DNA of 64,000 bases, taken from NCBI GenBank assembly GCA_002720865.1, contig PBIO01000011.1, forward strand, positions 124,001 to 188,000, read 5' to 3'. This document shows, one piece after another, positions 3,130 to 60,003 of this stretch. Positions within the stretch are counted from its first letter, which is position 1; each line of letters starts with the position of its first letter. The position numbers and the translations under genes were made by a program. The DNA is from Halobacteriovorax sp. (GTDB lineage Bacteria > Bdellovibrionota > Bacteriovoracia > Bacteriovoracales > Bacteriovoracaceae). The notes beneath the pieces are model-generated. The model ran no database searches. It was not told the DNA's origin and was given only the letters and a program-made list of their open reading frames with translations.

Positions 3130-3562
3130 AAAGATTTCCCCCTTAAAAATGGAGCGCTTTAAGTGGATCTGCATTCTACTTCTTTCTCATATTATCATTG
3201 CCATGCTAAATCTTGACCCTCCCACTGTGATCAATGAAGATGCTGCAACGCCTAGACCTGGTCATACTAGGCTTCAACTACAAATAAAAAGTAAAGTTCC
3301 CGTTTTAAAGCAAAAAATTAAAATTACTCTACTCACTAAAGATCTAGATCTTATCTCCAGAGAGGCCATCATTTTAAAGAGGCTTGGAAATGAGGATTCT
3401 ATCGACAGTTCCGGGGATCTCTATTTAGTCGAAATCCCTGAAACTGACTTAAACAATTTGGTTGAATTTAGAACAAAAAAACTTATCGCCTATCCCTCAT
3501 CGAAAAAGATTCTCACTAAGAAATCTAAACAAAGGAAAACAAACTATGAAATTTACTTTTAG
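3104..3562 (+). CDS. Tad-locus membrane-anchored protein, CpaB/RcpC position
   Basis: A 152-residue protein starting at the TTG at 3104, which has AAAGGA seven bases upstream; the ATG at 3149 is the alternative. A transmembrane helix near residues 19-35 anchors an extracytoplasmic region. In Tad loci, CpaB/RcpC (which stabilises the secretin) lies just before the secretin gene, and the segment ITLLTKDLDLISREAIIL vaguely resembles the CpaB beta-rich region. I cannot see a SAF domain, and the protein is about half the usual CpaB length, so this is a positional guess. It overlaps the preceding gene by 26 bases. Confidence 0.5.
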   Translation: MSGIKLRTKKISPLKMERFKWICILLLSHIIIAMLNLDPPTVINEDAATPRPGHTRLQLQIKSKVPVLKQKIKITLLTKDLDLISREAIILKRLGNEDSIDSSGDLYLVEIPETDLNNLVEFRTKKLIAYPSSKKILTKKSKQRKTNYEIYF

Positions 3563-3875
3563 TATCGGTCTTCTCATCATTTTTTATCTTATTCCCATTG
3601 AGGCTAAGGAGGTGATTCTCTTTTCTTATCACCCCTCTCAATCACAGATGAGTCAAACTCTTAAGAAAATCATGCATGAAAATATGGATTTTCCAGAAGA
3701 ACTTGTGGAGTTCATAGAAAGTGAAGAGCCCTGCAAAAGAAAAGAAGTTTCAGCGGCTCATATCTGCATAAAAGAAAATGGTGAGATGGACTTTCCCATC
3801 ATTTATACAGAAACAATGAAAGAAACCCTTGGTGTATTTTGGAGTGAATTTAAAGATGAACTTAAAGAAAAATAA
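3546..3875 (+). CDS. Small exported protein of the pilus locus
   Basis: A 109-residue protein starting at the ATG at 3546, nine bases after an AAAGGA motif, rather than at the upstream in-frame start at 3462. It has a Sec signal peptide ending near IEAKE. The mature part contains two Cys residues (EPCKRKE and HICIK) that could form a disulphide, and the segment DFPIIYTE. I do not recognise the family. It is tightly packed between the CpaB-position gene (17-base overlap) and the secretin gene (20-base overlap), so a role in pilus assembly is likely. Confidence 0.6.
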   Translation: MKFTFSIGLLIIFYLIPIEAKEVILFSYHPSQSQMSQTLKKIMHENMDFPEELVEFIESEEPCKRKEVSAAHICIKENGEMDFPIIYTETMKETLGVFWSEFKDELKEK

Positions 3876-5400
3876 GAGCCCGGATACTAAAAAGCATCAG
3901 GGCCTAAAAACTATATTTAAAGATTGGGCTTACTTATCTGGATGGATAGCAAACTTAGGAGTTGTTCCCTTATTGTTGTTTGCGGCCTTTCTTTTCTTAC
4001 CAGCATTTGTTTTTTTGCGGGCTCTTCTATTTTTTGTAACACGAGTATTTGAAACCATTTTAATTCTCCTTCAACGAATACAGCTGTGCGAACTTCGTAG
4101 AATCAAGTATTTACCGAGAATGCTCACATCTGTCAAAGCTTTAACTTTGGGAATTATACTCGCCTCAAGCGCTCATGCCCAGGACGGTTCCATTTCTATT
4201 AAAAAACAAAGCCTTATCCTCAGCATTGGGGAAGTTAAGGAGCTTCACCTCCCGAAACTGGAAAGGTTCACCATTGGCAACAATGACTCACTGTCCCATA
4301 AATTTTATCAAAAAAGAAAGAGTCTTCTCCTAAAAGGAAAAAAGCTAGGCCTATCTGAATTACATGTATGGAAGCAAAATGGAGAACATTTAATTTACCA
4401 GATCTATATTCTTTCTAAGGCCAATCAACTCAAGCTCTTAAGTCTAACTGAGTCTATTTTGAATATGGGACTCAATGTTCAGAATAAAGGACCTTGGCTT
4501 CTCTTAAGTGGAGAGCTAGAGCGAGTTACCCATTATAACCAACTTTTAAAGATTCTAAGGGCCAATAAAGAAAAGCTTCAACTTCAAATCAGCCTTAGCC
4601 CAGTCTTAAAAAAGAGACTTCTCTCTGAAGTTATAAAAGCTCTTTTTGACGATCATATCAGCGACTTTAAATGCCTCTTTAAAAATATTGAATTCATTTG
4701 TCATCTGAGTGACGGCAGAAGTCCTTCCCCGGAGCTTAAGAATTATTTAGAAAGTAAGTACGCTGTTAAGTTTATAAAACACAGAGCTCAGCATAGAGAA
4801 AATAATTATCGTCTTAAAATCAAAATAATCCAATTGGAGTCCACCGAAGCTGAGGCAGCAGGTTTTGGTCTTAACCAATTGTCTGGAAGCCTAAAAGGAA
4901 TTTTTGATCAGGGCTGGCAAACTCTATATGAACAAAACAAAGTCCTTTTAAAAGATCATGGAGTTGAAGCGGGACTTTTGGCAGAGCCTGTTATGCTCGC
5001 TAGACCTAATAAAAAGATGATGATTCAGGTTGGATCAGAGATCCCCTATCAATCAACCAGTACAGAGGGTCAAACCACAACTGACTTCAAGTTTGCCGGG
5101 CTAAGATTAAAGCTTCTTCTTGAAAAAGAAGGTGACGGGTTTCTTTTAAACTATACCGCTGAGATAACAAAACCAGGAAGCTCCGGAGAAATTAGCGGTA
5201 GTAAAGAGTCTGCATCTGCGAGAATTTCAGCAGGTATTCCAATAGAGCTTTTTGAAATTAGTTTTCAAACTGATGCCCTTAATAAAGAGAGTCTTCCCCT
5301 TGCCAATAAAATACCCCTCTTCGGGAGAATTTTTTCAAATAATCAGCAATCTAAAAGCTATAAGAAGATAACAGGTCTCGTTTTCATGGAGAAAATATAA
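3856..5400 (+). CDS. Tad/type II-like secretin (RcpA/CpaC) with N-terminal membrane extension
   Basis: A 514-residue outer-membrane secretin, the pore through which the Flp pilus leaves the cell. Residues 110-190 match the pilus-formation N-terminal domain of RcpA/CpaC (SILS-type beta strands around LILSIGEVKEL). The C-terminal third (about 320-514) is the secretin barrel, with VGSEIPYQS, FKFAGLRLKLLLE and LPLANKIPLFGRIF. Unusually, residues 1-88 form an extension with two hydrophobic helices (about 30-52 and 54-73) placed before what looks like the normal signal peptide (residues 89-108, ending SSAHAQ). A later start at the ATG at 4120 would give an ordinary secretin, so the extension may be a separate coupled peptide. 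The stop overlaps the tadA start (TAATG). Confidence 0.82.
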   Translation: MNLKKNKSPDTKKHQGLKTIFKDWAYLSGWIANLGVVPLLLFAAFLFLPAFVFLRALLFFVTRVFETILILLQRIQLCELRRIKYLPRMLTSVKALTLGIILASSAHAQDGSISIKKQSLILSIGEVKELHLPKLERFTIGNNDSLSHKFYQKRKSLLLKGKKLGLSELHVWKQNGEHLIYQIYILSKANQLKLLSLTESILNMGLNVQNKGPWLLLSGELERVTHYNQLLKILRANKEKLQLQISLSPVLKKRLLSEVIKALFDDHISDFKCLFKNIEFICHLSDGRSPSPELKNYLESKYAVKFIKHRAQHRENNYRLKIKIIQLESTEAEAAGFGLNQLSGSLKGIFDQGWQTLYEQNKVLLKDHGVEAGLLAEPVMLARPNKKMMIQVGSEIPYQSTSTEGQTTTDFKFAGLRLKLLLEKEGDGFLLNYTAEITKPGSSGEISGSKESASARISAGIPIELFEISFQTDALNKESLPLANKIPLFGRIFSNNQQSKSYKKITGLVFMEKI

Positions 5401-51486: not shown

Positions 51487-52032
51487 TTATTTATCTATTG
51501 TTTTACTATCTTCTGACTCTTTTTCACTAGAATCAGACTTACTACAAGGTTTTGAGACTGAATACTTACTTAGTGAAGCTTCTTTCTCGTCAACAATCTT
51601 ATTACAGTATTTGGTGGCATACTTTTTCCAGGCCGCCTTGGACATCTTACATTCCTTATCAAATTCCTTAAAGATTGTTTTAACGTTCTTACAAGTGAAC
51701 AGAACCGCTTTGTAAGCCATTTTTTTCTTATCAACCACAATATCGCTAGGCTTTTTAAAATCCTTCTTTTTCTTATTCTTTAACTTTTCTACTTGGATCT
51801 TTTTAATCCCACATTTCTTTTTGTCCGCAGTACATTTATCCTTACAAAAGTTTTTAGATCTCTCTCTCCACTCTTTATAAGATTTCCCACTATTATTATC
51901 GAAATCTTTCTTTAAGTTGTTGTGACATTTAATACTAACCTTTTTAAACTTCTTCGCTTCTTCTTCAGCACTTAAGCTCAGACTAAAACTAATACAGCAA
52001 ATAGCAATAAAAACTGTTTTTAATAACTTCAT
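51487..52032 (-). CDS. Secreted Lys/Cys-rich protein, paralogue 1
   Basis: A 181-residue precursor with a signal peptide (about 1-22) and a very basic mature protein. Cys residues are patterned in two modules: KCHN...FCKDKCTADKKKCGI, then FTCKNVKTIFKEFDKEC, WKKYATKYCNKI and YSVSKPC. The second module is shared with the genes at 52227 and 52896. The tail is Ser/Glu/Asp-rich. I know of no named family. It is read in the opposite direction to its two paralogues, and the divergent promoters must lie in 52033-52226. Confidence 0.75.
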   Translation of the reverse strand: MKLLKTVFIAICCISFSLSLSAEEEAKKFKKVSIKCHNNLKKDFDNNSGKSYKEWRERSKNFCKDKCTADKKKCGIKKIQVEKLKNKKKKDFKKPSDIVVDKKKMAYKAVLFTCKNVKTIFKEFDKECKMSKAAWKKYATKYCNKIVDEKEASLSKYSVSKPCSKSDSSEKESEDSKTIDK

Positions 52033-52226
52033 CTTTAGAATCCTTTTTTAATGTTCTTTTAGAAATTCTACTCTGAGGGGCCCTTTCTCCCTACAGGAAA
52101 TTCTTACCAACAAGATAAGTGCCTGATTTTAAAGAGTTTTAAATATAGTGCGCTTTAAAAATCTCCCTAAATTACGTGAAGAGAAAGAGGCATTATGGCT
52201 ATAGAACTTCAAAACAGGAGACAGAC

Positions 52227-52772
52227 ATGAAGACGACACTAATTTTAATGGCAACTGTAATTGCATTTACCTCTTCAGTCGTATTGGCCGAAGATACTAA
52301 AAAGAAACCAAACCTTTCCGTTGAAGTAAAAGAGATCTCTCATTATACCAGAGCAACTTTTACATGTTATGACGGCGAAGGAGTAAGTTTCAAAGATAAA
52401 GTAGGTCTTCCTGCTAAGATCTATAGAAAGAAAGGTGAAGTTTTTTGTAAAAATAGATGCTCTAAAGTTACTAATAAATGCGGTATTAATAGCTCGCAAA
52501 TCACTGGCTTTGCTGGACTTTATAGAAATGATCTATTTAGAAAGCTCCTCTATACTTGCCAAGGTGTAAAAACGATTTTCACCGAATTTGGAAACTCTTG
52601 TAAAACAAGAGCTGAGTGGAAAAAATTTGCCTTCAAAAGATGTAGAAAACTAGTGGGAAAACTTCCTGACGCATTAAATGGCTATGAAGTTAGTCACAAA
52701 TGTAAAAAGAGAAAAACACTTGAAAATCGTCTAGAGAGAAGAGACGCTGCTTCAAGTTCCCTAAAAAAATAA
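52227..52772 (+). CDS. Secreted Lys/Cys-rich protein, paralogue 2
   Basis: A 181-residue precursor starting at the ATG at 52227 after CAGGAG; the ATG at 52176 lacks a ribosome-binding site. A signal peptide ends at VLAED. Module 1 has TCYDGEG, then VFCKNRCSKVTNKCGI. Module 2 has YTCQGVKTIFTEFGNSCK, then EWKKFAFKRCRKLV and YEVSHKC, matching paralogue 1 residue by residue in spacing. The C-terminus is basic. Eight Cys suggest four disulphides. It ends in a terminator, so it is monocistronic. Confidence 0.77.
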   Translation: MKTTLILMATVIAFTSSVVLAEDTKKKPNLSVEVKEISHYTRATFTCYDGEGVSFKDKVGLPAKIYRKKGEVFCKNRCSKVTNKCGINSSQITGFAGLYRNDLFRKLLYTCQGVKTIFTEFGNSCKTRAEWKKFAFKRCRKLVGKLPDALNGYEVSHKCKKRKTLENRLERRDAASSSLKK

Positions 52773-52823: not shown

Positions 52824-52895
52824 GTCTCAAAAAACTCCCTAAAAAAAAATCATAAATCTTACTAATATTAAAACAACCAAAAACAGGAGAGAATG

Positions 52896-53378
52896 ATGAA
52901 CACATTAAAAACGATATTGATTACTCTTAGCTTAATTATTGGATTCTCAAGCCTGGCTTCAGCCGGTGAAGAAGCCCTTTTTAAGGGAGTTCAGTACAAA
53001 TGTAAAAACTATAAAACTGGAAAAATAAAAGACGCCAAAGGACTCTCAAGGTCATCGTTAATTAAGAAAGCAAAAAAGCTATGCGGGCATATTGGTCTAA
53101 AAGAATTTCATATATTTGGTTTTTTAGGTGCTTTTAAAGCCGACCAATACGAGGTTTTAAGTTACACCTGTCAAGACTTTAACAAAGCTTTCCAAGAAAG
53201 AGACCCAAAATGTAAATCTCAAAAAGAATGGAAAGAAATTGCCAAAAAAAGATGTGCCAAGATCAGCCTAATGCCAAGAAAGCTTACTTCTTATAAAGTA
53301 AGTAAAAAATGTAAAATTAGAAGTTTAAAGAAAGAAGTTACTCCATCGCGGACTTTTTTCAGAAGATCTTCTAAATAG
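52896..53378 (+). CDS. Secreted Lys/Cys-rich protein, paralogue 3
   Basis: A 160-residue precursor from the ATG at 52896 (AGGAG with six-base spacing; an ATG one codon earlier is closer than ideal). A signal peptide ends at ASAGE. Module 1 is reduced, with only KCKNYKTG and KLCGHIGL. Module 2 is complete: YTCQDFNKAFQERDPKCK, EWKEIAKKRCAKI and YKVSKKC. The tail is Arg/Lys-rich. The loss of two Cys in module 1 compared with paralogues 1 and 2 implies one disulphide fewer. A terminator follows. Confidence 0.77.
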   Translation: MNTLKTILITLSLIIGFSSLASAGEEALFKGVQYKCKNYKTGKIKDAKGLSRSSLIKKAKKLCGHIGLKEFHIFGFLGAFKADQYEVLSYTCQDFNKAFQERDPKCKSQKEWKEIAKKRCAKISLMPRKLTSYKVSKKCKIRSLKKEVTPSRTFFRRSSK

Positions 53379-53386
53379 GGTAGTTT

Positions 53387-53416
53387 AAAGGGCCTTCGGA
53401 TGTGAGGCCCTTTTTT
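53387..53416. terminator. Bidirectional terminator
   Basis: A nine-base-pair stem (AAAGGGCCT/AGGCCCTTT) with a nine-base loop ends in six T residues, between paralogue 3 and the convergent TPR gene. The flanking A and T runs allow function in both directions. Confidence 0.88.
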
Positions 53417-54986
53417 AAGATGCTTTTTTGATTGAATAAATTTTCGCTTTTCCATTACCACTAGAGCTAATCATTTCTTTTTCTTCCCACTCTCCTATCC
53501 ACCTATTGGCCATAGATTTAGTAATAGAAAAAAAGTTCTCTAAGTCAGACCTCTTAAACTCTTCACCTGGACAGTTCTTCATAAAGTAGGCAAATTGTCC
53601 GCGGATTTTATTGTCCATGGGCAAGATAATTTGAACCTTACTAGAGTCTATTTTAAAGTGCCTATCCTTAGTTTCAATTTCAAAGCCCTTCGTTTTTAAC
53701 TGCTTTACAATTTTTTTAATTCTGTCCACTCCAACAGAGGGGTGAATAAATTCTTGCCTATAGACATAGTCGATCAAGGCCCATTCTGAAACTCCAGCAC
53801 TCCCGCTACCAATTATAATATTGAGTGTGCTACTTTCAATCTCTGTCAGAAAAGTAAAGCTTTCGTTGATATTAATAAGCCCTGAGCACAGATCCCAAAA
53901 GTTTTTATTCTCTTCAATTCTAAGCTCATCATATATCGCCGGTAAGATTTCACTTCCATCCAATAGCCAACAATCCGCTGAGTTTTGGACGTACTGTTTT
54001 TCAATCCATTTAGGGAGAGGGTTTTTGTTATTCGGATTAAGACTTTTACCGAGCAAATATCGATAGGGTGAAAAAGAGTGATGTGCCCGAACCATGACTT
54101 TATCTTCAAACTCCAGGTCATTATAGCCGCTTTTCTCTAACCAATAATAAAGGCTCATCTTTGCGATGGGTTGAGAATTCTTTTTGTTTAATATCTCTAT
54201 TCCTTTCAGAAGTTCTACTTGTGCTTTTTCGTCTTCTCCTGCAAGGACATAGCAGGCACCTGACATTTGACAGAGATAAGCCATATCCTTGGACTCATTT
54301 TTATCCTTAAGGTACTTCCAAGCTGAATTAAATTCAAGCCTTGCTCTAGAGAGATTACCTTCAAACAGATAACATTCTCCAAGAACTTCGTGACACATCG
54401 ATTTTAAAGAGATCTCTTCACTTGAAAGCTCACTAAGCAGGCCTTCTACTAACGACTTAGAACTCTCATATTCCCCTAAGCCATTATAACAATCAGCAAG
54501 ACTAACTTTTACTACGGCCATATTTAGGCGATTAGAAAAGCTATTTAACTCTATCGCTTTTTCAAAAAAAGTTGCTGCTTCTTTAAACATATAGGCACTT
54601 AGAAAAACTTTTCCCTTGGTCTCAAAGTACTTTGGATAGATTGTTGAGATTGGAATATTTCTCTCGTTAACTATTTTATCAATAACTTCAAAGTGCTTCA
54701 TTGCCACATACTTTGCTCCAAGAAAGTTTAGGAGATAGGCATGTCGAATCTGTAGTGGAATTTCTTCTTGATTGATATTAAGTAACTCACTTTCTGAGGC
54801 CAGGTCCCCTAAAATCTTAAGAGCTTTATCGGGTTCATTCGCCCAAAGATACCATTCAGATAATCTCAACTTATCCTTAACACAAAACGAGCGAACACCT
54901 TTAAGTTTCGAGAGTTCTTTGACCACAATTTCAAAATTATTCTCCAAAATGGCCTGTTCAATAAGTTTTACAAAATCTTCTTTCAA
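53415..54986 (-). CDS. TPR protein with C-terminal winged-helix domains, predicted regulator
   Basis: A 523-residue cytoplasmic protein. Residues about 1-300 are a helical repeat array of TPR type (AATFFEKAIELNSFSNRL, LADCYNGLGEYESSKSLVE, LGECYLFEGNLSRARLEF). Residues about 400-455 (ALIDYVYRQEFIHPSVGVDR to FEIETKDRHFKID) resemble the winged helix of OmpR-type output domains. A last segment (about 465-520, FKRSDLENFFSITKSMANRW to GKAKIYSI) looks like a second winged helix. It is flanked by the secreted Cys-protein genes and may regulate them; that is inference from position. No sensor domain other than the TPRs is visible. Confidence 0.72.
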   Translation of the reverse strand: MKEDFVKLIEQAILENNFEIVVKELSKLKGVRSFCVKDKLRLSEWYLWANEPDKALKILGDLASESELLNINQEEIPLQIRHAYLLNFLGAKYVAMKHFEVIDKIVNERNIPISTIYPKYFETKGKVFLSAYMFKEAATFFEKAIELNSFSNRLNMAVVKVSLADCYNGLGEYESSKSLVEGLLSELSSEEISLKSMCHEVLGECYLFEGNLSRARLEFNSAWKYLKDKNESKDMAYLCQMSGACYVLAGEDEKAQVELLKGIEILNKKNSQPIAKMSLYYWLEKSGYNDLEFEDKVMVRAHHSFSPYRYLLGKSLNPNNKNPLPKWIEKQYVQNSADCWLLDGSEILPAIYDELRIEENKNFWDLCSGLININESFTFLTEIESSTLNIIIGSGSAGVSEWALIDYVYRQEFIHPSVGVDRIKKIVKQLKTKGFEIETKDRHFKIDSSKVQIILPMDNKIRGQFAYFMKNCPGEEFKRSDLENFFSITKSMANRWIGEWEEKEMISSSGNGKAKIYSIKKAS

Positions 54987-55160
54987 AAAAATTCCTCCAT
55001 CTCCTTATCGGCCAATCTGGCCAAGGTCTAAAGAGGCTGACGAAATCACTCAGAATGTTATAGAATAGCCCCTAAACGCATTTTTACACTTTTTAGGGAG
55101 AAATTTGAGTCGATTTGCATTCAATTGGACTCCCCTCTATTATTGGGACAGGAGTTAATT

Positions 55161-55580
55161 ATGATCAAGCTATTCGCCATAAGTATTTTCCTTTTTTCCA
55201 CAATTACCTTTGCTTCTGAGGAAGCAATAAAACAAGTTAAAAAATTAGAAGTTGAAATTTCTAAAATTGAAAAAGACTCTCACTCTTGCAAAAAGCTTGA
55301 GAGTAAAGAGCAAGTGCCTTGTCACAAGAAAAAAGACCGAGCTCTTTCTAAAGCTCAATATAAAAAGCTAGCTATCTCAAAATGTTTAAAAACGAAAAAA
55401 GACCAAGTTAAATGTTTAAAGAAAATTGATGCAAAGACTGATGACTGTCTTTTCTTAAAAAAAGGAAATATCGTTTGTAAAAATGGAAATCGTTTTCTTA
55501 CTGTCAACGATGGAAAGAAAGTAGATGAGCCAAGCTCGACCACTGAAAATAGTAGCAACCAAAACACGAATAAAAAATAG
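55161..55580 (+). CDS. Secreted protein with three C-x9/10-C hairpins
   Basis: A 139-residue precursor from the ATG at 55161 (ACAGGAG upstream). A signal peptide ends at TFASE. Six Cys form three pairs: C-x10-C (SCKKLESKEQVPC), C-x9-C (KCLKTKKDQVKC) and C-x9-C (DCLFLKKGNIVC), each in a Lys-rich predicted helix or loop. The last pair is followed by KNGNRFLTVN, a motif repeated at the end of the next gene with identical spacing. The tail is Asn/Ser/Thr-rich. It is two bases upstream of that gene, so they form an operon. Confidence 0.75.
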   Translation: MIKLFAISIFLFSTITFASEEAIKQVKKLEVEISKIEKDSHSCKKLESKEQVPCHKKKDRALSKAQYKKLAISKCLKTKKDQVKCLKKIDAKTDDCLFLKKGNIVCKNGNRFLTVNDGKKVDEPSSTTENSSNQNTNKK

Positions 55581-55582
55581 AT

Positions 55583-56338
55583 ATGAAAAAGCAATCACTA
55601 ATCATCATATTTCTTTTTACTATCTTTGCTGGGATAGCGGCGGCTTTAAGTATTAATAGTAAGCAAAAATGTCTTACTTTAGACTCAAACATGTCAAAAC
55701 TTAAGTGTATTGCCAAAATCCGAGATACCAAGATTCAAAAGATAAATACTTTGGTTGCTAAAAAATGTAAGAGCTGGGTCAAACCAGAAGAAAAAGTCGC
55801 CTGCTTTGAGCAACAAATTATCAAAATCTGTGGTTCGCATATAAAAGACAAAGATAAATGCTTAGGTCTAATTAAGCTTGAATATCCAAATTTTCCTAAA
55901 TACTGTTCTCGATTTTCAAGAAATCAAAGTAAGAAAAACTGTTTAAAGGACTCTAAGGATTTAGAAGTTAGATGGAAACTCGTTACTAGAAATTATTGGA
56001 TTGATAAAAAGAAGTGCGGGTCCAAAAAATACGTCAATAACTGTATTGATGTTGCGAGAAGATCAAGATTAAAAGAAAAATTCTATATTCATCAAAGTGA
56101 GAAATGCTTTAAAGCCGATACCCAAAAGTCTCGCTCTGTCTGCTTAAGTCTCTATCGTAAGAAAAGTAAACTAAACCTTCCTCTTGATATTAGTAAAAAC
56201 CCCAACGAACAATGTATAAAAATTAACAATGAACAATTACTTTGCCGGGACGGATCTTTATTTCAATTAGTAAATGAAGTTAACCCTGTTCAATTAGAAT
56301 CTTCTTTAAAAATGGGTGACGGAGATCGGGGTGGATAA
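55583..56338 (+). CDS. Secreted protein with seven C-xn-C hairpin repeats
   Basis: A 251-residue precursor with a hydrophobic signal peptide (about 5-23). All 14 Cys fall into seven consecutive pairs with spacings of 11, 11, 9, 11, 8, 11 and 9 residues, mostly preceded by Lys and followed by a hydrophobic residue after the second Cys. This is a tandem repeat of small, probably helical, disulphide-linked hairpins. The last pair is followed by RDGSLFQLVN, matching the end of the 55161 product. No family is known to me. A hairpin without a T-run follows at 56348-56367. Confidence 0.77.
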   Translation: MKKQSLIIIFLFTIFAGIAAALSINSKQKCLTLDSNMSKLKCIAKIRDTKIQKINTLVAKKCKSWVKPEEKVACFEQQIIKICGSHIKDKDKCLGLIKLEYPNFPKYCSRFSRNQSKKNCLKDSKDLEVRWKLVTRNYWIDKKKCGSKKYVNNCIDVARRSRLKEKFYIHQSEKCFKADTQKSRSVCLSLYRKKSKLNLPLDISKNPNEQCIKINNEQLLCRDGSLFQLVNEVNPVQLESSLKMGDGDRGG

Positions 56339-56347
56339 TCCGAAATT

Positions 56348-56367
56348 CTGCCCATATCGGTGGGCAG
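56348..56367 (+). terminator. Weak hairpin downstream of the seven-hairpin gene
   Basis: A seven-base-pair stem (CTGCCCA/TGGGCAG) with a six-base loop lies ten bases after the stop codon. No T-run follows, so termination is uncertain. Confidence 0.45.
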
Positions 56368-56482: not shown

Positions 56483-59218
56483 ATGAAATACTATAAAGAA
56501 ATCCTTCTTTTAACTATCGCTTCGCTGCTGCCCCTTCTGGCCTTTAGTGAAGAGGGACTTGTCGAATGCCCTAAGACAGTATTTCCAAACACAGAGCTCG
56601 GTTCAATTACTGAGGTCGGCCAAAAATTTGTAGGTTGTGATAGCCAGTTTATCCCAGAAGCGGAACTATGTAAGTGTGCCCAGTCAAACGCCACTCTTTT
56701 AAGTGAGAGTCCTCAAAAAGAAGCTCTTGCGAGAATTTCGAAGGAAGAATCGAAAAAAGCGTGGACTAAAAGTTATAAGAAAGAGTTCCTAAATATAGCT
56801 CAAAGTCTTTTTGATTTAGATGCCATGACAAAAAATAATATCGAGGACGCCGCTTATTTAAAGGATAACTTAAGCCCAACTTGTAATATTTCAAGCATCC
56901 TTTCTTCTCTTAGTGCTTTTGGTTCTTCTGAGGGCTGTGATCAAGATACATTTAAAAACAGGGTCAAAGAAGTTTTCGGAAGTGAGGACTTAAGTGCTAT
57001 TCAAAAAGACTATAGCTCTAGACTATCAAGACTTATTGAAAATCAAGTCCCATCTAATTTAAAAAGTGATCCAAATATTTGTCTTCCCTACTCTACTTAT
57101 AATTATTCTAAAAACTTAAATATCTTAAATTCCAAGAATAAGGGATTTGTCTCAGATAAAATTGAAGAGACAGTAGTTGCCATGAAAGTGGCTGAACTAA
57201 ATGGAAGATGCACGAGCTTACAGGGCCCTAATGTAAGTAATATCTTTTGTAAAAAAGAGCTCCCCGATCTTCCGCTTGATGTATATCAAGCAAGTGTTTC
57301 TCCTGCCCTTTCAAGTAACGATAGCTTCGCTATGGCGAACCTTGTTTCAGCCAGAGCTTACTGCAATAGCGAAGGACCTAAAGAAGTTGGAAGTGAATCA
57401 GCACCAGCTTTTAATGTGGAAAATACGAGAGAAACTGACTTTGAAACTTTTATCAATGGTGAAGGTGGAGATTATCAAAAGTTCAATCAGTCCGTTTGTA
57501 AGTTTCTACCTGAATGTGATAATGGCCAGAGCACGGATAAATCCTGCCGGAATATCTTAAACCTAAGGCAGATGACTCTATCAAATTTAGAGGAAAAAAT
57601 TAGGGGGATTAGACCAAAACTAGAAGCAAAAGTGATTGAGGACCTGATAGAGAAGTTTGCTTATGACCCAGAGTCTATTCTATTTGACTCAAATATCGCT
57701 AAAGTTATGGATAAAAGTGAGCTTGCAGACTTAAAAGGATTTTTAGCGTATTTAAATAACTTTATAATTGATAAGGCCAATGGAAATCAAACACTTCGTG
57801 AGATGGCAGGCCAAGATAGTACTGAAGTAAAAAATCTTAAAGACCCACTGCTACTTGCAGAAAAACGAAAGAGAATCTTAAAGGAAGCCACTTTTGCTAG
57901 TACTCTTACACCAATTGAAAAGGATGACCCAAAATTAGCAAGAGTAAAAAAACCTGTTACCCAAAAACCAGATAAGCCTGATCCTGAAGGTGAACTTGAC
58001 TTAAAAGCCTTTAATGAAAAAAGAAGGCTGTCGGCGGCTCAGTTTAATTTAAATGATATTGAAGATTCTGAGTTAGCTAAAAAATTCCTTGAAGGACCAG
58101 CCGTTCAGAATCCAACCTTTGTGGAACCCCCTAAACCTGAAAACATAACACCTACAAATGTGGTAGTAACGCCGCCGAGAAATGCTCCAAGCGTACCAGC
58201 AAGAAATGTAGACACCCAAGCGAATTTACCTAGTAATGATTTCATCCCCCCAACGAGAAGGTCATCTAATAAAGTCTCTAATTCTTTTAAACCGTCGAGT
58301 ACAATTAATTCACCTGCGACAACGAATGCAGGAAGAAGTTTTAACACAGTTCCTTTTCCAAGCTCAGCCTCAAGCTTTGTACCTAAAGCACCTAGTTCAA
58401 CTTCTAATTCTTCTAGCGGCTTTAAAAGTGCTTCTCGAGGAAAAAAGGCCAATCAGACGAACAGGGACCTTGCTTCTAGTTTTGGCGGTGGACGAAGTCT
58501 CAATAATGAAATCTCAAGATATAAAAATGTAATAGGAAATCTTCCATCAGATATTTCCTCAGCCCCAACGAATTCAGGTCCAGTGACGCCAAGTGAATTT
58601 GAACAAGCTCAACGGAAGCTGGCGGGAGTCCCTGACGGGATAAAACCCGAAAGCGATTTTGAAAAAGAAGAAACGAGTAAAAAAGGAAAAGGTACACCTG
58701 GTACTAAAGGTACAAATGCTTCAAATAAAAAGCTGGACAAGGAAAAAGAGAAAGACGCTAGTGACAAGCTCGCCGCAAAAGGCAAAAAAGGCTTAACCGA
58801 TAAAAATGGAAAGTTCACACCACAGTATATGTACAAATATGTGCTTCCTCATTTAATTGTAGATGTGTTTGGAGTTGAAGAGGTGGTAAAAAAATATAAT
58901 CTATATGGAAAGAGATTTCACACTTTAGAAATCACTGACGAAGAAACATTTATCTTACATACCTATGATTTTGAAAGTTCTTCTGTTCCATTTGTTAGTG
59001 GCTTTGAAGACCAGGAGTATAATCTGGTTAGGCTTGAGATCCTTGAGCAAGTACAAGCAACTTTAGCAGAATCGCGTTCAAGTGCTGTTATTAATAAAAT
59101 TCTAGAGAATACCTCTCACCGAGAAGAACGAGTTGTAAAAACAGAGGTTGAGCAGATCAGACTCTCTGAGAATATGATTCCTTTTGAGGATGTGGAAAAA
59201 AGGTTTGCTCAAAACTAG
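56483..59218 (+). CDS. Large secreted protein with Cys-rich N-domain and disordered centre
   Basis: A 911-residue precursor with a signal peptide (about 1-22). Residues about 25-360 contain all 13 Cys (for example LCKCAQ and VCKFLPECD) and are mostly helical. Residues about 490-690 are Pro/Ser/Asn/Thr-rich and probably disordered; about 725-770 are Lys/Gly-rich. A C-terminal folded domain (about 775-911) begins FTPQYMYKYVLPHLIVDVFG. No family is recognised. No ribosome-binding site precedes the ATG at 56483, and GATAAT lies seven bases before it, so the message may be leaderless. The serine protease gene starts two bases after its stop. Confidence 0.75.
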   Translation: MKYYKEILLLTIASLLPLLAFSEEGLVECPKTVFPNTELGSITEVGQKFVGCDSQFIPEAELCKCAQSNATLLSESPQKEALARISKEESKKAWTKSYKKEFLNIAQSLFDLDAMTKNNIEDAAYLKDNLSPTCNISSILSSLSAFGSSEGCDQDTFKNRVKEVFGSEDLSAIQKDYSSRLSRLIENQVPSNLKSDPNICLPYSTYNYSKNLNILNSKNKGFVSDKIEETVVAMKVAELNGRCTSLQGPNVSNIFCKKELPDLPLDVYQASVSPALSSNDSFAMANLVSARAYCNSEGPKEVGSESAPAFNVENTRETDFETFINGEGGDYQKFNQSVCKFLPECDNGQSTDKSCRNILNLRQMTLSNLEEKIRGIRPKLEAKVIEDLIEKFAYDPESILFDSNIAKVMDKSELADLKGFLAYLNNFIIDKANGNQTLREMAGQDSTEVKNLKDPLLLAEKRKRILKEATFASTLTPIEKDDPKLARVKKPVTQKPDKPDPEGELDLKAFNEKRRLSAAQFNLNDIEDSELAKKFLEGPAVQNPTFVEPPKPENITPTNVVVTPPRNAPSVPARNVDTQANLPSNDFIPPTRRSSNKVSNSFKPSSTINSPATTNAGRSFNTVPFPSSASSFVPKAPSSTSNSSSGFKSASRGKKANQTNRDLASSFGGGRSLNNEISRYKNVIGNLPSDISSAPTNSGPVTPSEFEQAQRKLAGVPDGIKPESDFEKEETSKKGKGTPGTKGTNASNKKLDKEKEKDASDKLAAKGKKGLTDKNGKFTPQYMYKYVLPHLIVDVFGVEEVVKKYNLYGKRFHTLEITDEETFILHTYDFESSSVPFVSGFEDQEYNLVRLEILEQVQATLAESRSSAVINKILENTSHREERVVKTEVEQIRLSENMIPFEDVEKRFAQN

Positions 59219-59220
59219 TC

Positions 59221-60003
59221 ATGAATTTTAAATTACTCCTTCTTATTCTTTTATACTTCTTCCCTTTTACTTTATCCGCTCAAATGATCATTGGCCTAAA
59301 AGATCAAAGCTACGTTAACTCATTGAGAAAACAGGCTACTGTACGTATTGCTATTTTTAATAAAAACTTAGACGAAGTATCTGTTGGGGCAGGTTTATAT
59401 TTAGGGAAAAAAGGGATGCTCTTAACCAATTATCATGTGTTAAGAGATTTCTTACTAAACCCAGAGTATAAGATACAAATTAAAAATAGCGATGGATCAT
59501 TAGTTAAGAACTTAAGCGTGATCAATTGTGATAAGGAAAACCAACAGGACCTTTGCTTACTAATCACAAAACCTAATAAAAACTTCTTTCCAATTTTAAA
59601 AACAAAAGTTGGAACAGGTCATCTTTTGAGCCTTATTGGTCACTGTGGAAAAGAAAATTTCAATATTAAAAAAGGTAAAGTTCTAGAGTACTACAAAAAA
59701 GACTCGAACAAATTTAAGCTAGCTCAAGATGAGTTGAATTACATGACTGAGTTAATTCAAACAAGTGCCAGGCAATGTCCAGGAGATAGTGGTGGACCAT
59801 TTTTCTCCTCTCAAGGCGAGCTTTTAGGGATCGCCTCAATTGTGTTTAAAAGAAATAACTCTAAAAAGCAATACAATATCGGCATCACGAATAATGAAAT
59901 CTTAAGCTTTATAAAGAAAAAAAGAAATCCGAAAACTGTTGAAAAAAATCGAATAATAAAGGGATCAAAATCTGAGGCAAAGCTTTTGAAATTCCTAGAT
60001 TAG
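59221..60003 (+). CDS. Secreted trypsin-like serine protease
   Basis: A 260-residue precursor with a signal peptide (about 1-20). The chymotrypsin-fold triad is complete: His72 in TNYHVL, Asp110 in QQDLCLL and Ser190 in CPGDSGGP. Four Cys (ICD, DLCLL, GHCG, RQCPG) are conserved-looking. There is no PDZ domain. It is translated together with the 911-residue protein, so processing of that protein or joint secretion is plausible. Confidence 0.9.
   Translation: MNFKLLLLILLYFFPFTLSAQMIIGLKDQSYVNSLRKQATVRIAIFNKNLDEVSVGAGLYLGKKGMLLTNYHVLRDFLLNPEYKIQIKNSDGSLVKNLSVINCDKENQQDLCLLITKPNKNFFPILKTKVGTGHLLSLIGHCGKENFNIKKGKVLEYYKKDSNKFKLAQDELNYMTELIQTSARQCPGDSGGPFFSSQGELLGIASIVFKRNNSKKQYNIGITNNEILSFIKKKRNPKTVEKNRIIKGSKSEAKLLKFLD

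Follow-up and report, generated by a model that had tools for sequence, protein, structure and literature searches.

Two adjacent genes of Halobacteriovorax sp. (source genome, 4.9 Mb) encode exported proteins, P0001 and P0002, whose cysteines fall into consecutive, narrowly spaced pairs, and which are quite likely built as chains of hairpins, each stapled by a disulfide. The spacing of the cysteines, its conservation, and one moderate structural model support this architecture. Unless another locus is named, positions given below refer to the window, the 64,000-nucleotide stretch of contig PBIO01000011.1 that was analyzed.

Cysteine layout and a shared ending

A sequence-only reading of this DNA had described the 14 Cys of P0002 as seven consecutive pairs separated by 11, 11, 9, 11, 8, 11, and 9 residues, which a recount confirmed. 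It had also given the upstream product, P0001, three pairs (10, 9, and 9) and placed the two genes two bases apart (55161-55580 and 55583-56338), both correctly. The cysteines occupy positions 43, 54, 75, 85, 96, and 106 of P0001, leaving successive gaps of 10, 20, 9, 10, and 9 residues, and positions 30, 42, 62, 74, 83, 93, 108, 120, 145, 154, 175, 187, 211, and 221 of P0002, with gaps of 11, 19, 11, 8, 9, 14, 11, 24, 8, 20, 11, 23, and 9. In both proteins the odd gaps, those within pairs, are tight (8-11), and the even gaps, those between pairs, are loose (8 to 24); pair starts in P0002 are spaced 32, 21, 25, 37, 30, and 36 residues. Both proteins open with a hydrophobic, signal-peptide-like stretch, as judged by eye, which supports the earlier proposal that they are exported, and AGGAG precedes the P0001 ATG at 55161. 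The features of the two genes are as follows.

55161-55580 (+): P0001, 139-aa exported protein with a signal-peptide-like N-terminus, three Cys pairs, and a low-complexity tail (from the ORF, Cys gaps, orthologue, and model)
55287-55322 (+): P0001 pair 1, C43/C54, predicted helical hairpin turn (model helices H20-45 and H48-78)
55383-55415 (+): P0001 pair 2, C75/C85, predicted helical hairpin turn (model helices H48-78 and H82-95; Cys symmetric about the turn)
55440-55511 (+): P0001 shared ending DDCLFLKKGNIVCKNGNRFLTVND, with pair 3, C96/C106, modeled as a beta-hairpin (strands E96-98 and E104-106, pLDDT about 59-69; alignment of the endings)
55583-56338 (+): P0002, 251-aa exported protein with 14 Cys as seven consecutive pairs (ORF, Cys gaps, and orthologue)
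55670-55708 (+): P0002 pair 1, C30/C42 (x11), from the Cys gaps, as for pairs 2 to 6
55766-55804 (+): P0002 pair 2, C62/C74 (x11)
55829-55861 (+): P0002 pair 3, C83/C93 (x9)
55904-55942 (+): P0002 pair 4, C108/C120 (x11)
56015-56044 (+): P0002 pair 5, C145/C154 (x8)
56105-56143 (+): P0002 pair 6, C175/C187 (x11)
56207-56278 (+): P0002 shared ending EQCIKINNEQLLCRDGSLFQLVNE, with pair 7, C211/C221 (x9), probably a beta-hairpin (alignment, low-confidence model, and BLASTP)

The last pair belongs to an ending of the form C-x9-C-[KR]-[ND]-G-[NS]-x-F-x-x-V-N, which has identical spacing in P0001 (CKNGNRFLTVN) and P0002 (CRDGSLFQLVN). This common ending had been noticed from the sequence; it proved real and is retained in both orthologues with small changes, one of them reading NNGNRFLSIN, where IN replaces the final VN. 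Pairwise homology between the endings of the two proteins is weak, with a BLASTP E value of 0.011 (for a single comparison) and an hhalign E value of 0.06. A degenerate DNA pattern of the ending matched 8 sites in the genome, compared with 4 for the reversed control, and two of the 8 were the P0001 and P0002 genes themselves. P0003, a protein of another genus (genome G028) ending in GKISCKNGNRYKLI, was considered as a wider member and rejected (E value of 0.055 per genome with a profile built without P0003), and the remaining matches to the ending profile were attributed to chance. The P0003 gene (locus L008, 1306-1890) encodes a 194-aa exported Cys-rich protein adjoining fatty-acid synthesis genes, which had no match in any other genome of the family.

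Conservation and expectation by chance

Homologues were sought in a set of 129 genomes, which served for the family, order, and class searches alike. The P0001 and P0002 genes were found in only one other genome of this set, a Halobacteriovorax MAG (G037); its contig 205 and the independently found JAIBDQ010000070.1 were taken as one record and counted once because their gene content is identical. The P0001 orthologue is 52% identical and retains 6/6 Cys and all spacings, and the P0002 orthologue is 76% identical and retains 14/14 Cys, again at every spacing. Homologues breaking the paired spacing would have spoken against the sequence-only reading; the single relative keeps all 20 Cys and the spacings between them. 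Between the orthologues, synonymous differences (pS) were 0.73 and nonsynonymous differences (pN) 0.31 for P0001, and 0.85 and 0.15, respectively, for P0002. Synonymous sites are thus saturated or nearly so while nonsynonymous differences are lower, indicating that both genes are under protein-level constraint. Weaker genome matches, such as L005 and L053, lay in broken or unrelated frames and were discarded, and a search of viral contigs, plasmids, and phages gave no match to P0001 or P0002.

The exact probability that cysteines placed randomly in the mature chain leave all odd gaps within 8-11 residues is 7.4e-7 for the seven gaps of P0002 and 0.0019 for P0001; summed over any band four residues wide, these values become 2.8e-5 and 0.039. 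In a census of 214 ORFs of at least 100 aa, drawn from the window and the fetched loci, 49 encoded at least 6 Cys, and among these 49 only P0001, P0002, and their orthologues had at least three consecutive odd gaps of 8-11. The six non-terminal pair segments of P0002 are also slightly alike beyond composition (shuffle P of about 0.001).

Predicted structure and known stapled hairpins

Neither protein could be credibly assigned to a family by searches of Pfam, NCBIfam, PHROGs, and PADLOC; a PADLOC match of P0002 (E value of 0.0056) begins in the signal peptide and was set aside. Neither Sel1 (PF08238) nor the NCBIfam Hcp models matched P0001 or P0002 at E values up to 1. LprI-type domains (PF07007) are periplasmic and helical and carry a Cys pair at similar spacing, but they too had no Pfam match to P0001 or P0002 at E values up to 1. 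In profile searches of PDB sequences, Hcp and Csep1 chains were absent from the matches at E values up to 5, in a copy of the database that may lack Csep1, and the only match was a small TIM subunit (E values of 0.11-0.17), which aligned two Cys, was not significant, and was rejected.

AlphaFold models of both proteins were built on two-sequence alignments. The P0001 model had a mean pLDDT of 65.6 (block means 81-88 for residues 21-70 and 69-77 for residues 71-100) and contained helices 20-45, 48-78, and 82-95, followed by strands 96-98 and 104-106. In this model C43/C54 and C75/C85 flank helical turns, C75/C85 symmetrically, and C96/C106 close a short beta-hairpin. The P0002 model was poor (pLDDT 49, pTM 0.26); in it, the helices break between the two cysteines of every pair, and the last pair lies on strands. 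As judged from these models, stapled helical hairpins are likely in P0001 and plausible in P0002, and the hairpin closed by the last pair common to both proteins is probably of the beta and not the helical type. Foldseek comparison with the PDB returned no match for the P0001 model (best E value of 1.7) or for the low-confidence P0002 model (best E value of 0.6). A DsbB-like oxidase is encoded in 3/3 genomes of the genus, which makes it feasible for disulfides to form in the envelope. The tandem disulfide-stapled hairpins of the sequence-only reading are thus upheld in part: the conserved spacing, the oxidase, and pairs 1 and 2 of P0001, which in the model bracket helix-turn-helix bends, favor them, but the last pair of both proteins appears beta-hairpin-like and not helical.

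The same reading had failed to recognize such an architecture in bacteria. This was wrong, since Hcp and Csep1 proteins are precedents (PMC12904459, PMC3851747). HcpB and HcpC, which Helicobacter pylori secretes, are solenoids in which every alpha-hairpin contains its own disulfide (PMC12904459, PMC3851747), HcpC measuring 267 residues after signal cleavage (PMC3851747). Csep1P of Campylobacter concisus is a secreted alpha-solenoid whose three alpha-hairpins each contain a C-x8-C disulfide (Cys-59/68, 97/106, and 156/165) and which lacks the Sel1 sequence signature (PMC12904459). Like the Hcp proteins, P0001 and P0002 would be exported bacterial proteins of consecutive alpha-hairpins with a disulfide each, the bonds being predicted here, and HcpC is similar in size to P0002; unlike them, they have a pitch of 21-37 residues instead of the Sel1-like 36-38, no Sel1 match in place of the Sel1 signature, and probably a beta-hairpin end. 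With the solenoid of Csep1P, which also has an extra-solenoidal subdomain, they share secretion, the lack of a Sel1 signature, and, if the predictions hold, Cys-paired alpha-hairpins with disulfides, but Csep1P has three pairs of 8 where P0002 has seven of 8-11, and no PDB sequence match links them. Because there is no Sel1 match and no PDB sequence match, and because the pitch is irregular and the end different, we do not assign P0001 and P0002 to the Hcp or Csep1 proteins; they are a variant of the stapled alpha-hairpin design that is lineage-restricted and apparently unrelated, irregular in pitch and probably ending in a beta-hairpin.

Gene neighborhood and competing explanations

P0001 and P0002 lie in a block of five genes, encoding a TPR protein, P0001, P0002, a 911-aa protein, and a trypsin-like protease, whose order is the same in the genome of the window and in G037. 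The next gene rightward differs, with a short secreted-looking ORF and a LysR gene in the window and a metallo-beta-lactamase-like gene in G037. Besides P0001 and P0002, the block has the following features.

53415-54986 (-): 523-aa TPR protein with a winged-helix-like C-terminal end, divergent, probable regulator (Pfam TPR_19, 3.2e-6; orthologue 80% identical and at the corresponding position)
55095-55126 (+): upstream block, candidate promoter/operator (31/32 identical in the sister species, the surrounding DNA having diverged)
56348-56367 (+): 8-bp RNA hairpin directly after the P0002 stop (also in the sister species, where alone a T-run follows)
56483-59218 (+): 911-aa exported Ser/Pro-rich protein, conserved block (59% identical orthologue)
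59221-60003 (+): 260-aa exported trypsin-like serine protease with a GDSGGP motif, conserved block (Pfam Trypsin_2, 4e-13; 62% identical orthologue)

The winged-helix assignment was made from the sequence by eye. The 32-base block at 55095-55126 holds an imperfect palindrome, TTGA...TCAA, and is overlapped by a promoter-like match at 55114-55143; it is possibly the operator of the divergent TPR-containing regulator. The RNA hairpin at 56348-56367 had a z score of -2.4 in the window and -4.2 in the relative, and its presence after P0002 in both genomes suggests that transcription of the four secreted genes may be divided between two units. Neither the TPR regulator nor the 911-aa protein had a match in G038, the third genome of the genus. 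In another genus, a short contig (G078 contig 215, locus L070) carries a frame whose product is distantly related to the 911-aa protein (29% identical over residues 63-207), next to a gene for a trypsin-like exported protease in divergent orientation (minus-strand frame matched at 1968-2366; 3274-5025 on the plus strand), which hints that the 911-aa protein and the protease are functionally linked. No Cys-pair genes were present on that contig.

In the explanation that we favor, P0001 and P0002 would be exported and would fold oxidatively in the envelope. Every non-terminal Cys pair would bracket the turn of a helical hairpin, as modeled moderately for P0001 and weakly for P0002, the last pair would bracket a short beta-hairpin ending C-x-[ND]-G-x-x-F-x-x-V-N, and each pair would be a disulfide stapling its own hairpin, so that P0002 would form a short, irregular, stable alpha-solenoid. 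The two proteins may then serve as rigid extracytoplasmic binding or adaptor scaffolds, a function suggested by the gene neighborhood and by the fact that alpha-solenoids serve as binding surfaces, and one that we put forward as doubtful. They and two further products, the 911-aa protein and the trypsin-like protease, would make up a small secreted cassette under the divergent TPR-containing regulator. For this explanation as a whole, oxidatively folded stapled-hairpin scaffolds in a secreted cassette, we judge the balance to be about even, counting against it the poor P0002 model, the single independent homologue, the lack of a fold match, and the hairpin that possibly splits the transcript.

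The cysteines of a pair might instead sit on one helix or on neighboring helices without bonding each other, and form bonds with those of the next pair, yielding a differently cross-linked helical bundle. Twin CX9C and small TIM proteins, in which the bonds join two helices that each carry CX9C or CX3C, resemble P0001 and P0002 in having Cys pairs about 9 residues apart, short helices, and oxidative folding, but they are mitochondrial, and P0001 and P0002 gave no Pfam or significant match. An x9 spacing does occur four times across the two proteins, even gaps of 8, 14, and 19 could fit spacing within a helix, and the sole PDB sequence match was to a small TIM subunit; that alignment, however, covers two Cys only, the odd gaps are tight where the even gaps are irregular, and the pairs in the P0001 model bracket turns instead of falling within one helix. 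We regard such cross-linking as unlikely. Very unlikely, in our view, is that the pattern is decorative, its regularity arising partly by chance in a secreted protein that is rich in Cys and Lys, specific to the lineage, and evolving fast. The extremely narrow distribution of P0001 and P0002 and the low confidence of the P0002 model would agree with this, but the P0002 spacing has a chance of about 7e-7, all Cys are conserved in the relative under protein-level constraint, and the adjacent gene has the same spacing.

A different role is conceivable for the same fold. P0001 and P0002 could act on a protease, either the trypsin-like one encoded next to them or one of the prey, as inhibitors, as cofactors, or as chaperones resembling propeptides, with stapled hairpins that withstand digestion and the C-terminal beta-hairpin loop as the contact. 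The arrangement of the genes next to those for the protease and the 911-aa protein, kept in both genomes, would suit such a role, as would the short Cys-closed beta-hairpin end, the clearest part common to both proteins, and the protease gene beside the distant 911-aa relative of G078. The possible terminator hairpin nevertheless separates the two gene pairs, known inhibitor families in Pfam and NCBIfam have no similarity to P0001 or P0002, and the short G078 contig combines the 911-aa relative and the protease without Cys-pair genes; we rate this role as rather unlikely. Improbable, as we see it, would be a new sequence-unrelated family of extracytoplasmic stapled hairpin chains with a C-terminal beta-hairpin tag (C-x9-C-x-[ND]-G-x-x-F-x-x-V-N), acting as a modular scaffold or protease partner in predation.

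If the stapled-hairpin architecture holds, stapled alpha-hairpin solenoids would have arisen outside the Hcp and Csep1 lineages, in a predatory marine bacterium, and P0001 and P0002, with their irregular pitch and capping beta-hairpin, would be naturally occurring secreted scaffolds of great stability. The five-gene block is likewise a candidate secreted system of Halobacteriovorax, lineage-specific and open to testing.

Near P0001 and P0002, three exported proteins that are rich in Cys and paralogous to one another are encoded at 52893-53378 (+), 52224-52772 (+), and 51487-52032 (-). The product of 52893-53378 scored above the Pfam cutoff for APP_Cu_bd, the copper-binding domain of amyloid precursor protein (E value of 8.2e-7; 30.0 bits versus 26.4). 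Conserved His ligands were not evident in these paralogues, and a PDB sequence search returned no APP chain. The three share the motif C-x5-W-K-x2-A-x3-C...L-x2-Y-x-V-S-x2-C, with small variations in length.
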